Part shown: piece after piece, positions 5,085 to 15,968 of the stretch
Position numbering within the stretch: the stretch's first letter is position 1
Layout of the letters: each line of letters begins with the position of its first letter
Made by a program: the position numbers and the translations under genes
Notes under the pieces: model-generated
Told to the model about the DNA's origin: nothing
Seen by the model: only the letters and a program-made list of their open reading frames with translations
The model's database searches: none
IMG/VR virus record: IMGVR_UViG_3300022821_000107
Coordinates: 1-24,781 of that record
Length of the DNA stretch: 24,781 bases
Reading direction: 5' to 3' (one strand)
Origin: a virus

Positions 5085-5273
5085 TTACTCGTAGTGGTTT
5101 ATTTCCATATCTGGTATTGCATCTGCTTCGACCTCATCATCGTGGTTTCTGTCATCATCTTCTTGGTATTCATCTTTTCTTGCATCTACTGATTCTTCTT
5201 CTTTCATCATAAATTCCATCTCTTTTACTTTTGCATCTTCTTGTGCTTCTCTTAGTTCAATTAAATTGCTCAT
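5085..5273 (-). CDS. Small acidic protein, 62 aa
   Basis: The product, starting MSNLIELREAQ, is very acidic, with a run of Asp/Glu in its second half (EYQEDDDRNHDDEVEAD). I choose the start at 5273 and not the in-frame ATG at 5306 because a promoter with its -10 at 5307-5312 would begin transcription near 5300, leaving the first ATG without a leader. The 5273 start has an A-rich leader of about 27 bases. It is the first gene of the small-gene block after the helicase. The function is unknown; DNA mimicry is only a guess from composition. Confidence 0.6.
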   Translation of the reverse strand: MSNLIELREAQEDAKVKEMEFMMKEEESVDARKDEYQEDDDRNHDDEVEADAIPDMEINHYE

Positions 5274-5306
5274 ATTTTTGTTTGTTGTTATTTGATCAAT
5301 ACCCAT

Positions 5307-7048: not shown

Positions 7049-7521
7049 TATTTACCTTTCTGATACTGTCCATCGTACATTGATGCTGAGTCTGCTTCGT
7101 GGAAGAAGATCTGCGCAACCCTTGCTCCTTTCTGGATCTCAACTGGCGCTGTTGTTCTTAGTACTGCTCCAATTTGATTCTTAAAGCCGCTGTCGTAAAG
7201 ACCTGAGATGATAAAGGCTCCCATTCTATTTAGAGTGCTTCTGTGAACAATCTGCGCACACATGTTCTCTGGAATAGCCACCTTTTGCTGAAATTCAATT
7301 GCGTATGAGTGTCCTGGGTGAAATGCGAAGTAATCCGCTCTATCCATCTCAAGTTCCGTATTGAGCTTCATCTTCTTATCATCAACACCCAGAGCTCCTC
7401 CGTTTATGAGTGATGCACTCTCAAGTGTTAGATCAATTCCGTTCTGTTGAATCTCAAACTTTCCTTCGTTTATGTTCTCAACAATCTTTTCTGCCTCTAT
7501 TTGTTTTGGGTTAATTATCAT
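7048..7521 (-). CDS. dut: dUTPase of the Dcd/Dut family
   Basis: The 157-residue trimer-type fold of the dCTP deaminase/dUTPase family shows QNGIDLTL (27-33), HRSTLNRMG (93-101), GLYDSGF with the water-activating Asp110, GARVAQIFF (132-140) and the end YDGQYQKGK, which is typical of the archaeal-style branch. The Glu that deaminases use for proton transfer is not visible where expected: the segment reads IGAVLRT. I therefore read it as a monofunctional dUTPase that keeps uracil out of phage DNA and supplies dUMP. It overlaps DpdA by 11 bases and the loader-like gene by one. Confidence 0.8.
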   Translation of the reverse strand: MIINPKQIEAEKIVENINEGKFEIQQNGIDLTLESASLINGGALGVDDKKMKLNTELEMDRADYFAFHPGHSYAIEFQQKVAIPENMCAQIVHRSTLNRMGAFIISGLYDSGFKNQIGAVLRTTAPVEIQKGARVAQIFFHEADSASMYDGQYQKGK

Positions 7522-8311: not shown

Positions 8312-8931
8312 TTTTGTTTTAATTTATTCTCATAATTTCCTCCCTTCCACTTCCAAATCTGTTGTGCGTTAAAAACCAATCCCATCTCGTGCTCCTCCTT
8401 AGGATCAATCTTTTCGCTTGCAAGATGATCTAGATACTCTTTACTTACCGGTCCGTACTCAAGCTCCATCCAAAGCGTAATTGTGTGCCTTAGAAGCGAC
8501 TCAAGCACCTCCTTTGGTGGCATTCCCCCCTTGAAGTTTGCGGCACCGTGTCTTATCTCACCCTTCTTCATGTGCTTTCCGTAGGCAATCAAGAAGTCGG
8601 GATAAAAGTAGGATGCATAATTCAATTTGTGATCCTGCTTATCTCTCGTAACTCCTTCTGCATACTCTGTCTTCTCTGCTTCGTCTTTGTCCATCAACGC
8701 ATTGTGCTTCTTGAAAAGCTCTTCAACTTTTCCCTCTGCCCACTTCTTAATTCTTAGATATCCAGGTCCTCCAAACTCAGATAGCTTTCTGATTGAGGTT
8801 CCTTTTATCATTGTCTCCTCACTTATCTCTGCAGCAATTTCTGAGTTTAGAATTCTCCACATATAAACTATGTATGCAATTCTATCAGTTGGATTCTGCG
8901 GATCCCGCTTCGTAAATCTTTTTTTATTCAT
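8308..8931 (-). CDS. DUF5664-like protein (possible dNTP pyrophosphohydrolase relative)
   Basis: The C-terminal 110 residues resemble DUF5664, annotated as the N-terminal domain of dATP/dGTP diphosphohydrolases. The helical segments are YPDFLIAYGKHMKKGEI, RHGAANFKGGMPP, LLRHTITLWME and EEHEMGLVFNAQQIW, the last of which matches the metal-facing His/Glu helix of that family. The N-terminal 95 residues are unassigned. I take ATG 8931 as the start because it overlaps the preceding stop by ATGAATAA. An upstream ATG at 8964 would overlap by 41 bases. Next to DpdA, it might adjust the purine deoxynucleotide pool, but that role is inferred. Confidence 0.55.
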   Translation of the reverse strand: MNKKRFTKRDPQNPTDRIAYIVYMWRILNSEIAAEISEETMIKGTSIRKLSEFGGPGYLRIKKWAEGKVEELFKKHNALMDKDEAEKTEYAEGVTRDKQDHKLNYASYFYPDFLIAYGKHMKKGEIRHGAANFKGGMPPKEVLESLLRHTITLWMELEYGPVSKEYLDHLASEKIDPKEEHEMGLVFNAQQIWKWKGGNYENKLKQK

Positions 8932-9277
8932 TAAATCTCTCGTAGTTGTTGATAACGCCAGCATTCTCTCCGTCCTCTGACACCTCTACCTCAATATGAC
9001 TTTTGCCATAGTCGGCCTCAAGGTAATCTAGGATGTATTCTGCCATATCCTCACAAGAGTATTCGGTCCTCTTTCGGCCTATTAACTCTTCTATAATTTC
9101 ATCGATGTGTCTTTGAACTATAAAGAATTCCAAAGCTCTCTCGTTGTGATCAACTGAAATCTTGGTAGTTACCTTAAATAGGTGCCTATGCAGATTCCTT
9201 AGAAAGTTGACCTCATCAGGTGCGTCTTTCCACCTGTGAAATCCTTCAAATTCATTTTTAACTTTAATGTATCTCAT
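8924..9277 (-). CDS. QueD-like T-fold protein lacking the catalytic cysteine
   Basis: The pattern lines up with QueD at 10343-10783. FEGFHRW (His14) matches the first zinc histidine, LHRHLFKV (His30, His32) matches LHGHRYKI, SCEDMAEYILDYL matches TAENIAKYIYDLI, and Glu101 lies where QueD has its catalytic Glu. The cysteine that QueD uses for catalysis, four residues before the HxH, is Leu26 here, and the protein is shorter (117 against 146). It is therefore probably a zinc-binding T-fold protein with a changed or lost reaction. It is the first gene of the downstream half of the deazaguanine cluster and overlaps the DUF5664-like gene by 8 bases. Confidence 0.6.
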   Translation of the reverse strand: MRYIKVKNEFEGFHRWKDAPDEVNFLRNLHRHLFKVTTKISVDHNERALEFFIVQRHIDEIIEELIGRKRTEYSCEDMAEYILDYLEADYGKSHIEVEVSEDGENAGVINNYERFNE

Positions 9278-11578: not shown

Positions 11579-11601
11579 AATCTTTGTACTGTTCTGAGAC
11601 C

Positions 11602-11630
11602 ATTATACATACTTGACTAGTAGCAAACAA
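11602..11630 (-). promoter_or_regulatory. Promoter of the minus-strand early arm (queE operon)
   Basis: On the minus strand TTGTTT (11625-11630), a 17-bp spacer and a perfect TATAAT (11602-11607) lie 24 bases upstream of the queE ATG. The motif AGTTATGCAC (minus strand, 11631-11640) abuts the -35. The plus-strand decamer TTGACTAGTA (11613-11622) inside the spacer also occurs, on the minus strand, at the 5.3-kb promoter. Confidence 0.65.
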
Positions 11631-11709
11631 GTGCATAACTTGTGTATAATGTGTGCAAAACATTCATATAGAGAGTGTTGCCTTATTTAGTGATGATGAT
11701 ATATAATAT
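11630..11709. other. Candidate replication origin (DnaA-box-like 9-mers plus AT-rich tract)
   Basis: Two 9-mers read TTATGCACT (11630-11638) and TTATACACA (11641-11649) on the minus strand. The second fits the relaxed DnaA-box form TTATNCACA and the first has one mismatch; they are 11 bp apart, one helical turn. An AT-rich stretch at 11690-11709 (TGATGATGATATATAATATA) could be the unwinding element. The two transcription arms diverge here, and coding strands are purine-rich on both sides. The origin call is inference. Confidence 0.35.
11678..11707 (+). promoter_or_regulatory. Promoter of the 11.7-kb small RNA
   Basis: TTGCCT (11678-11683), an 18-bp spacer and a perfect TATAAT (11702-11707) point to transcription starting near 11714, just before a long perfect-type hairpin and a terminator. 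Confidence 0.6.
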
Positions 11710-11713
11710 AGCC

Positions 11714-11813
11714 AATGTTCATTCTAACTCCACAAAAGGATATTTCAAAAGAAGTATCTTTCTGTGGAGTGAACACCACACTTAAACCTTCACTTTAACG
11801 AGTGAGGGTTTTT
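11714..11813 (+). ncRNA. Putative small structured RNA, about 100 nt
   Basis: The stretch between the promoter at 11678-11707 and the terminator at 11784-11813 has no ORF of note but holds a 44-base hairpin at 11727-11770. That hairpin is a 20-bp stem with eight perfect outer pairs (ACTCCACA with TGTGGAGT), one A-C mismatch, two G-T wobbles and an AAAA tetraloop. Own promoter, long stem and own terminator in 100 bases suggest a free-standing phage RNA. It could act on a protein, on a message, or in packaging or replication. No known family is recognised. Confidence 0.55.
11784..11813 (+). terminator. Rho-independent terminator
   Basis: An 11-bp stem (11784-11794 with 11801-11811, one G-T pair), a six-base loop TTAACG and the T-run 11809-11813. 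It ends the small RNA and separates it from the next 300 bases. Confidence 0.8.
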
Positions 11814-12117
11814 GTGTTACAATTCCAGAACTAGGAGCTATCAGTACATTCTCCTCAAAAACTATGACTGTAAAGATGGAAGTCAGTTGCAAGTCGTTTG
11901 ACTTAAAAACATTAAAGTGTTCGCTCTGTCCAGCCCTGACAACGAACGACCTCAACTGATTTTCATTAAGACATGTTTAGAGTAATTGGACTGTGATGAG
12001 GGCCAACCAAATAAACAATTTCTGGTTAAATAAAAAGTAACATGAATCCCTTGTGATGAGGGATATAAAGGGCCTATTACTTATAGTAAAGAAGTAGTTT
12101 AATACCAACACAACATG
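11814..12117. other. Non-coding interval with paired hairpins
   Basis: No convincing gene lies here. It contains the 11-bp direct repeat TGTGATGAGGG at 11992-12002 and 12052-12062, spaced exactly 60 bp. The second copy forms a hairpin with a perfect 6-bp stem (ATCCCT/AGGGAT, 12046-12064) and TGTGATG in its loop. The first copy lies in the loop of a weaker stem (TTGG/CCAA, 11986-12006). A 31-codon ORF at 11864-11959 with a CSLC pair has no Shine-Dalgarno sequence and is probably chance. Confidence 0.5.
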
Positions 12118-12123
12118 TATAAT
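12095..12123 (+). promoter_or_regulatory. Possible promoter of the tRNA-like element and late arm
   Basis: A perfect TATAAT at 12118-12123 has a poor -35 (TAGTTT, 12095-12100) at 17 bp. Transcription would start near 12130, eight bases before the tRNA-like element and in line with the first plus-strand gene at 12288. It shares ATGTATAATG with the queE promoter on the other strand. Confidence 0.5.
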
Positions 12124-12137
12124 GTATGTATAGGACA

Positions 12138-12238
12138 AGCCACTGACGGTCCTCTTGCAACGCACAACACTCCTTTCAATCTCTCTAAGATCAACACAAG
12201 GCGTTAGCAATTGTCGGGTTCGACTCCCCAAGTGGCTC
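12138..12238 (+). ncRNA. tRNA-like element (not a canonical tRNA)
   Basis: A perfect 7-bp acceptor-like stem pairs AGCCACT (12138-12144) with AGTGGCT (12231-12237). Directly inside its 3' strand is a T-arm: stem 12214-12218/12226-12230 with one C-C mismatch, and loop TTCGACT in the correct register. In place of normal D and anticodon arms there is one stem, TTGCAACGC (12155-12163) with GCGTTAGCAA (12201-12210), closing a 37-base loop. At 100 bases it is too long for a normal tRNA and too short for tmRNA, and no CCA is encoded. It may be a degenerate tRNA, a reduced tmRNA-like molecule, or a viral tRNA mimic. Confidence 0.4.
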
Positions 12239-12287
12239 ATGATGAATACAACTTAGATATTCTCATAATTAACACACAACAAAGTTT

Positions 12288-14193: not shown

Positions 14194-14442
14194 ATGTTAA
14201 AAATACTAGGCAACAGAGTCCTCCTATCCAAAGTGGAGAAGGAGAAGAAAGAGGGAGAGTTCGAAGAGGTAGAGGTTCAAGACAGTTTTGTTTACAAAGG
14301 AAGAGTCGAGCAACTAGGAGGAGGACTTCAAGGAGAAATACAAATAGGATCAATCGTCCACTTCGCCAAGTACTCACCACACACACACGATATTGAAGAC
14401 ATGAAGGCAGTTAGATTGGAAGATATAATCGCAATAGAATAA
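14194..14442 (+). CDS. groES: GroES-like co-chaperonin with altered mobile loop
   Basis: The beta-barrel frame of GroES is visible: ILGNRVLLSKVEKE at the N-terminus, YKGRVEQLGGG in the strand normally ending in VGxG, IQIGSIVHFAKYS, and the end VRLEDIIAIE. At 82 residues it is shorter than GroES (about 97). The mobile loop that docks on GroEL normally carries a hydrophobic IVL triad. Here it is replaced by the acidic GEFEEVEVQ, and no GGIVL is present. It overlaps groEL by one base (TAATG), so the two are produced together. Confidence 0.8.
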   Translation: MLKILGNRVLLSKVEKEKKEGEFEEVEVQDSFVYKGRVEQLGGGLQGEIQIGSIVHFAKYSPHTHDIEDMKAVRLEDIIAIE

Positions 14443-15968
14443 TGGCAAAAGAATCAACAAGAGGGGCAGAAGGAAGAGCTAAGGTAAAGAAAGGGATTGA
14501 TGAAGCAACTCTCGAAGTAGCACCAACTCTAGGAGCAGTAGGAATGACGGCAATGATTGAGTATCCAGGTCTTGATCCACTTGATGCCGATGATGGTAAG
14601 ACAATCCTTAACAGTCTTGAGTATGAAGATCCATACATGGAGATGGGACTGAAGAGACTGAAGAAGGCAGCCAACCGGACCAGTGAAGAGGGAGGTGATG
14701 GAACGGCAACAACAACAGTCATCACTCAAGCCCTAGTTACCGAAGCATTCAAGCTGGTAGAGAAGGACTCATCCATGATCAGAGAAGTTAAGGAACGACT
14801 ACAGTCCGGGCTTACTGAACTGATGAAGGAACTAGAGAAAGGAAGAAGAGAAGTGAAGGAGGATGATGTGGAACGCATCGCAACCATCTCATCACTTGAT
14901 CCTGAAGTAGCAAAGTTAATTGCTGAGGTCATCAAGGAGATCGGAGTCAATGGAGTTATCACAGTAGAGAAGGGAGCTAAGATCGGTTACTCATCGGAGG
15001 TGGTGAAGGGAGCTAAGTTCGACTCAGGGTTGATCTCTCCATACTTCATCAACGACCAAGAGAGGATGCAGACAGTTTTAAATGATGTCTACGTCGTTCT
15101 TGTTGATAGGAAGGTGAGCATGAATGAACAAATCAAGCCACTACTTGAGTCTATCGGACAGGGCAATGACGTTATGTTCATCGCCACAGATGTTGACTCA
15201 GTAGCACTTGCATCACTAGCTCAGAACGCAGCCAACGGATTGCTTAACTGTGCATGTGTTCGTAACCCATACAACGCAACACCGGCTAAGGACTTCCTGT
15301 TTGATATCGCAGCATTGACCGGAGCATCTGTCATCTCAGAAGAGAGAGGAATGAAGCTAGAGGATTGTGGTATCGAAGTATGTGGTAGAGCAGAGAAGGT
15401 GATAGTGACCAAGGACTCAGCTACCATCATTGGAGGTGTGGCGGGAGATGTACTTCCTAAGAGGATCGCAGAGATCGAAGCAATGATCGAAAGCACCACA
15501 TCATCATTCGACAAAGATAATCTAAAGGACAGACTGGCTCAACTGACTGGAGGTATTGGAGTCATAAGGGTTGGAGCATATACAGACACTGACTTCAATG
15601 CAAAGCAGTACAAATTCCAGAACGCCATCAATGCAACACAGGCAGCACTTCAGGAGGGAGTGATTGCAGGAGGAGGGATCGCACTACTTAATTGTGAGGT
15701 GAAGGAGCCAATGTTCCAGAACATTCTATCTGTACCATTCAGACAGATGGCCAAGAACGCTGGATTGAAAGAGAATCTTCAGTTCAATACCTCAACGGAG
15801 GGTTATGATTTCAAGAATAAGAAGAAGGTCGACATGTTCGAAGCAGGCATCATCGATCCATTCAAGGTAACTCGTCTGGCTCTTGAGAGTGCAACAGCCA
15901 TTGCATCATCGCTAGTAGGAACAGAGACAGCGATAGTGGCCAAGAAGGAGAAGAACTTAAAGAGCTAA
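14442..15968 (+). CDS. groEL: Divergent phage GroEL chaperonin
   Basis: The group I chaperonin signature runs throughout. TLGAVGM stands for the TLGPKGR loop, the DDG at 50-52 holds the Asp52 equivalent (Asp51), and GGDGTATTT at 84-92 has the Asp87 equivalent (Asp86). TGASVISEERGMKLED, LTGGIGVIRVGAYT, QEGVIAGGGIALL (404-416) and GIIDPFKVTRLAL (469-481, Asp472 for Asp495) follow. At Asp398, the residue needed for ATP hydrolysis, there is Asn394. GFGDRR of the apical domain and the GGM tail are missing; the length is 508 against about 545. Lying between TerS and TerL, it probably folds virion proteins. The last 21 bases lie in a 43-bp repeat. Confidence 0.93.
   Translation: MAKESTRGAEGRAKVKKGIDEATLEVAPTLGAVGMTAMIEYPGLDPLDADDGKTILNSLEYEDPYMEMGLKRLKKAANRTSEEGGDGTATTTVITQALVTEAFKLVEKDSSMIREVKERLQSGLTELMKELEKGRREVKEDDVERIATISSLDPEVAKLIAEVIKEIGVNGVITVEKGAKIGYSSEVVKGAKFDSGLISPYFINDQERMQTVLNDVYVVLVDRKVSMNEQIKPLLESIGQGNDVMFIATDVDSVALASLAQNAANGLLNCACVRNPYNATPAKDFLFDIAALTGASVISEERGMKLEDCGIEVCGRAEKVIVTKDSATIIGGVAGDVLPKRIAEIEAMIESTTSSFDKDNLKDRLAQLTGGIGVIRVGAYTDTDFNAKQYKFQNAINATQAALQEGVIAGGGIALLNCEVKEPMFQNILSVPFRQMAKNAGLKENLQFNTSTEGYDFKNKKKVDMFEAGIIDPFKVTRLALESATAIASSLVGTETAIVAKKEKNLKS

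Follow-up and report, generated by a model that had tools for sequence, protein, structure and literature searches.

A putative small hairpin RNA of conserved shape carried by phages with unrelated terminases

Gene setting and the predicted transcription unit

We analysed a window of 24,781 bases (the IMG/VR virus record IMGVR_UViG_3300022821_000107), which is a fragment of a tailed phage. The left-hand genes, on the minus strand, encode a DnaB-like helicase, FolE, QueD and QueE, and the right-hand genes, on the plus strand, encode small proteins, a bacterial-type GroEL, the terminase large subunit and the major head protein. The GroEL gene (14442-15968) lies directly 5' of the large terminase gene, as it does in most loci of this terminase lineage. 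The sole genome-collection match to the window terminase was a 40.6-kb phage-like contig (L090) in a Candidatus Scalindua MAG, which may be a host clue or a product of mis-binning. Between the end of queE (11578) and the first plus-strand gene (12288) lies a 709-nt gap, which holds a structured element, here called RNA-A, within a complete promoter-hairpin-terminator unit (11678-11815, plus strand). The features of this unit were as follows:

11678-11683, plus strand: -35-like box, TTGCCT
11702-11707, plus strand: -10 box, TATAAT, ending 8 nt before the RNA-A hairpin
11716-11775, plus strand: RNA-A hairpin, identified from folds, covariation and relatives
11716-11720/11771-11775, plus strand: outer helix of RNA-A, five pairs
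11721-11726, plus strand: 5' bulge of RNA-A, AUUCUA, 6 nt
11727-11734/11763-11770, plus strand: middle helix of RNA-A
11735 and 11762, plus strand: A.C mismatch of RNA-A
11736-11746/11751-11761, plus strand: inner helix of RNA-A
11747-11750, plus strand: loop of RNA-A, AAAA
11784-11815, plus strand: predicted intrinsic terminator of RNA-A

The promoter and terminators of RNA-A and its relatives are consensus-based predictions. In the window, the promoter proposed by an earlier sequence-only reading was found where that reading had placed it, with an 18-nt spacer and 10 of 12 consensus matches; taken by itself such a site is at chance level (3 found against 3.6 expected in the region), and it becomes convincing only through its recurrence at the matching position in the relatives. 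The same reading had described a 44-base hairpin with an AAAA loop and one mismatch. Its arms (11727-11746 and 11751-11770), loop and mismatch are in place, the 20-position stem comprising 19 pairs (17 Watson-Crick and two G.U) and the A.C mismatch, but the whole hairpin is larger (60 nt, 24 pairs), the outer helix and the bulge having been overlooked. The strong terminator it had named is likewise present, as a 12-pair stem (11784-11811) with a 4-nt loop, followed by TTGTGTT. Positions 11714-11815 folded at -43.2 kcal/mol, compared with -17.6 ± 3.1 kcal/mol for shuffled sequences (z = -8.3; 0 of 200 shuffles as good), and RNA-A was the strongest 60-nt fold across the 24.8-kb window. No match at the gathering score was obtained with Rfam 15 in the window, where a relaxed threshold returned chance-level matches only, nor at RNA-A in the loci of six members, which agrees with the earlier statement that no known family fits.

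Relatives of RNA-A and conservation of its shape

Six further copies of RNA-A were identified by structure-based searches in other phage contigs (L091, L092, L094, L103, L186 and L022). Because the divergent members could not be aligned by MAFFT, a structural descriptor and a covariance model (R2) were used instead. The descriptor considered only helix lengths, bulge and mismatch, ignored promoter, terminator and letters, and allowed any mismatch. Its top ranks were held by L092, L103/L011, L094 and the window, with L091 lower, among chance matches; the best shuffled scores (55 and 52) overlapped those of the lower-scoring members. The same scan, applied to loci selected by QueD, yielded L186. 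R2 was built from the window, L091 and L094, and this covariance-model search, which the sequence-only reading had suggested as a check, matched two loci outside the training set, L186 (E 2e-5) and L022 (E 1e-3). It did not reach L092 or L103, both of which are known from the descriptor alone.

Other searches returned less. Terminase homologues led to about 80 loci, most of which lacked RNA-A, and scans seeking a long hairpin flanked by a promoter and a terminator found look-alikes near QueE in other phages. One of two exact-pattern scans of viral contigs gave no match; the other gave L091 together with chance matches without the RNA-A structure. BLAST against named phages gave weak matches only, among them BK063667 (vir520), which is not a member. 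An A.C hairpin after a TATAAT box in L006 (3569-3629) was excluded, as no terminator was seen. All members come from metagenomic contigs, several of which are fragmentary, and they form a biased sample, since QueE or QueD genes were the starting point for finding most of them.

What the family conserves is a shape. From the base upwards it comprises an outer helix, a 5' bulge of 5-7 nt, a middle helix, the A.C mismatch and an inner helix, which measures about 11-12 bp in most members and is capped by a short loop. When the window, L091 and L094 were aligned without gaps, double changes were found in 12 of the 24 pairs, and none of 500 shuffles scored as high on any of five measures; sliding the partner strand abolished the signal. 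These are compensatory changes of the kind that the earlier reading had proposed to look for in relatives. A hand alignment of all seven members showed double changes in all 16 shared pair columns, a result that is illustrative only, since that alignment was fitted to the structure. The letters of the stem drift freely, and those of stem, loop and spacer are unconserved, leaving no common seed. The 5'-A.C-3' mismatch was kept in six of the seven members even though the structure scans had admitted any mismatch, which counts in favour of RNA-A; L103 has a two-nucleotide mismatch in its place. Each stem contained two to four G.U pairs, and in none of the seven members did the complement fold better than the RNA strand (in L091 the difference was negligible).

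The flanking signals, which neither the structure-only scan nor R2 had used, recurred as well. A terminator lay within 30 nt downstream of RNA-A in all seven members, compared with 3% of random positions, and a sigma-70-type promoter (at least 9 of 12 matches, with the -10 box ending 6-8 nt upstream) was present in six members, compared with 3.6% of random positions; the promoter of L103 scored only 7/12. Judged from this comparison of sequences, RNA-A is almost certainly a real RNA under selection, and apparently represents a genuine RNA family that is undescribed. The seven members, the covariation and the recurring promoter and terminator thus bear out the proposal of a dedicated small RNA gene.

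Distribution and the remainder of the gap

RNA-A was carried by phages with unrelated terminases. Within the terminase lineage of the window, the carriers were the window, G002 (L011/L103) and G001 (L022), and most other phages of the lineage, scanned over much of their records, were without it. The terminase of L091 belongs to another family (phrog_38 versus phrog_675), and that of the phage carrying L186 was just 27% identical. One clade of QueE was common to six of the seven carriers, but it also includes a non-carrier (L100), and QueE was absent from the 42.6-kb record of L022; from this distribution, RNA-A seems to move with the QueE module, or to share hosts with it, while being independent of it. 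Part of this linkage is a sampling effect, because most members were found around QueE or QueD. In the genome of L100 (G007), QueE itself is split by about 960 nt (7271-7381 and 8340-8948), possibly by an intron or an inserted element. We found no partner gene near RNA-A that was common to all seven members, which, together with the unrelated terminases, fits a target supplied by the host.

Past the RNA-A terminator lies a second structured element, RNA-B, which the sequence-only reading had overlooked:

11875-11967 (core 11913-11957), plus strand: RNA-B, with homologues downstream of RNA-A in L103 and L022

Among the loci searched with an RNA-B model, the core motif was confined to the window, L103 and L022, where it always follows RNA-A, and it was not found in relatives without RNA-A. 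In this set of three, 4 of the 10 pairs of its stem showed double changes, a level that 6 of 500 shuffles reached. No promoter-like site was present between RNA-A and RNA-B in L103 or L022, and in the window a 9/12 promoter-like site overlaps the RNA-A terminator. Conservation of RNA-B without a clear promoter of its own in three members suggests some read-through of the RNA-A terminator. A look-alike of RNA-B was noted in L094 by eye only, and a match in L124 was rejected because its fold is unlike that of RNA-B.

Several further observations were made in and around the gap. Additional similarity between the window (12025-12075) and L022 (about 1515-1570) extends beyond RNA-B (AAGTNACANGAAT ... 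GGGATANNAAGGG), a hint that more of the gap is conserved. A tRNA-like element on the plus strand (12138-12239), preceded by a TGTATAAT box, has a 7-bp acceptor (AGCCACT/AGTGGCT), a T-arm-like segment (TCGGG-TTCGACT-CCCCA) and a central stem whose loop measures about 37 nt; ARAGORN made no call there, and the fold was no better than shuffles. The gap contains three copies of TGTATAATG, distributed over both strands (11590-11605, minus; 11643-11655, plus; 12116-12128, plus), and this sequence is possibly a promoter motif shared within the window phage. Upstream of the same packaging operon, L006 carries a tRNA-Met (CAT; 5101-5172), followed by a second tRNA-like sequence (about 5219-5303) whose T-arm is good and whose anticodon stem encloses a 24-nt loop, and both tRNA-Met and tRNA-Gln are present in L044 and L049. 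In L003 (4640-4920) and L035 (3340-3640), gaps upstream of the packaging operon contain an AT-run with iteron-like repeats, both direct and inverted, on its flanks (GTAGCACTTCT, AAAGGTGAATAGT), and these regions look like a replication origin.

Possible modes of action

Our leading reading, held at somewhat less than even confidence, is that positions 11678-11815 form the gene of a small non-coding RNA, about 100 nt long, which likely binds a protein through its shape. Transcription by host RNA polymerase would begin at the base of the hairpin, so that the 5' end of RNA-A would be buried in the helix, and would stop at the intrinsic terminator, leaving both ends protected. With both ends protected, RNA-A should be long-lived, and the abundance that the sequence-only reading had expected of it would likewise be a consequence of its protected ends together with the predicted promoter. 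Binding of a protein by shape, rather than pairing with a target RNA, is most likely, because the shape is kept while the stem letters drift. From sequence we infer transcription, stability through protected ends and recognition of the shape by a protein, and we tentatively propose for RNA-A a role in trans, as a ligand that a protein recognises by shape; it would then serve as a decoy or effector directed against host machinery. Among the roles suggested earlier, those of decoy or protein ligand and of processing substrate may still apply to RNA-A, while a role as packaging RNA is unsupported by family models.

We place such an RNA, acting in trans and recognised by its shape, first. Second comes a leader of the next same-strand operon, one that is terminated and may also antiterminate. 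As a leader, RNA-A would be a short RNA made from a strong promoter and usually ending at the terminator, with later read-through into RNA-B and the operon, permitted by the hairpin acting on RNA polymerase in the manner of HK022 put or by an antiterminator protein as at lambda pR'-tR'. The conservation of RNA-B past the terminator speaks for this, as does the packaging operon that follows RNA-A in the window and L022, and in L091 the RNA is followed by same-strand genes for the terminase small subunit, large subunit and portal. A divergent gap, however, always has some same-strand gene next, so that these three loci are uninformative on the point; the L103 copy of RNA-A is oriented away from the packaging genes, what lies downstream differs between members, and the terminator is retained in all seven. 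On the side of the leader, weak matches place a NinG-like gene immediately 5' of RNA-A in L186 and a gene resembling a late activator on its 3' side in L092. In the lambda pR'-tR' leader (lambda '6S RNA'), a strong promoter next to the antiterminator gene Q makes a short terminated RNA, with the late genes downstream. RNA-A resembles it in having packaging or late genes further downstream in the window, L091 and L022, but differs in that no Q-like neighbour common to all seven members was found, that it is itself conserved by shape, and that the L103 copy does not face packaging genes.

HK022 put is a phage RNA antiterminator in which two stem-loops within about 70 nt form an RNA polymerase-binding fold, and it suppresses pausing and termination in cis without needing a phage protein (PMC9378689). 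Like putL, RNA-A stands right at the beginning of its transcript and is a structured, bulge-containing phage RNA about 60-75 nt in length (PMC9378689); the hairpin measures 60-75 nt and starts 6-8 nt after the -10 box in six members, in agreement with the position and size of put. Unlike the two stem-loops of put, RNA-A forms one long irregular stem in all members, with a strong terminator at once after it, and no sequence or Rfam relation between the two was shown. By analogy, put may serve as the nearest working model, though RNA-A lacks its two-stem architecture. Weighing both sides, we consider a leader, by either route, a doubtful explanation.

The remaining explanations are less probable still. 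A base-pairing (antisense) small RNA directed at phage or host mRNAs, a role that the earlier reading had also raised, would suit both the promoter-hairpin-terminator layout, which is frequent among base-pairing small RNAs, and the single-stranded bulge, loop and spacer of RNA-A. It is nonetheless improbable: the longest complementarity to the phage's own sequence was no better than in shuffles in six members (a long match in L186 was its own copy), and the freely changing letters of the stem, loop and spacer provide no shared seed. Equally improbable is an RNA decoy against host defence, such as a crRNA mimic (RNA anti-CRISPR) or a ligand of an RNA-sensing system. RNA anti-CRISPRs (Racr), which mimic CRISPR repeats, are encoded as solitary promoter-RNA-terminator units (PMC10651486), and RNA-A is likewise a small solitary phage non-coding RNA gene, with a patchy, accessory-gene-like carriage; its long covarying stem, whose letters change freely, makes mimicry of a repeat unlikely. 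That the locus acts as DNA, as a replication origin or protein-binding palindrome, is very improbable. RNA-A does lie in a large non-coding gap, and in two relatives that lack it the corresponding gap, or its vicinity, holds an AT block surrounded by iteron-like repeats, but a DNA palindrome would be mismatched at the G.U pairs that occur in all seven stems, folding of the other strand is no better, the promoter and terminator recur, and RNA-A has no constant relation to GC-skew turning points.

Bacterial 6S RNA and the known families are disfavoured as the identity of RNA-A. The former, an RNA polymerase decoy of about 180-200 nt with a large central bubble, is similar in being a long, irregular, stable hairpin conserved in shape rather than sequence, but RNA-A is 60 nt long, has a one-sided bulge of 5-7 nt and a mismatch, and has no Rfam match. 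GOLLD and ROOL RNAs are frequent in phages. These are structured non-coding RNAs of several hundred nucleotides (PMC12286853), whereas RNA-A is far shorter and also lacks an Rfam match.

It is conceivable, albeit unlikely, that RNA-A and RNA-B together form a new two-part locus that needs no protein partner of its own to act on the transcription machinery of the host, that works as a shape-recognised RNA of a kind other than put, and that travels between unrelated phages with a clade of 7-deazaguanine genes. The non-coding RNAs of uncultured phages are poorly catalogued, and a covariation-supported family found in phages with unrelated terminases offers a concrete, testable target: the ends of this short RNA are fixed, its bulge sits at a defined position and its A.C mismatch is retained. 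These fixed features make partner fishing and point-mutant assays feasible, and if RNA polymerase or a defence system is the target, RNA-A would be a compact RNA tool.
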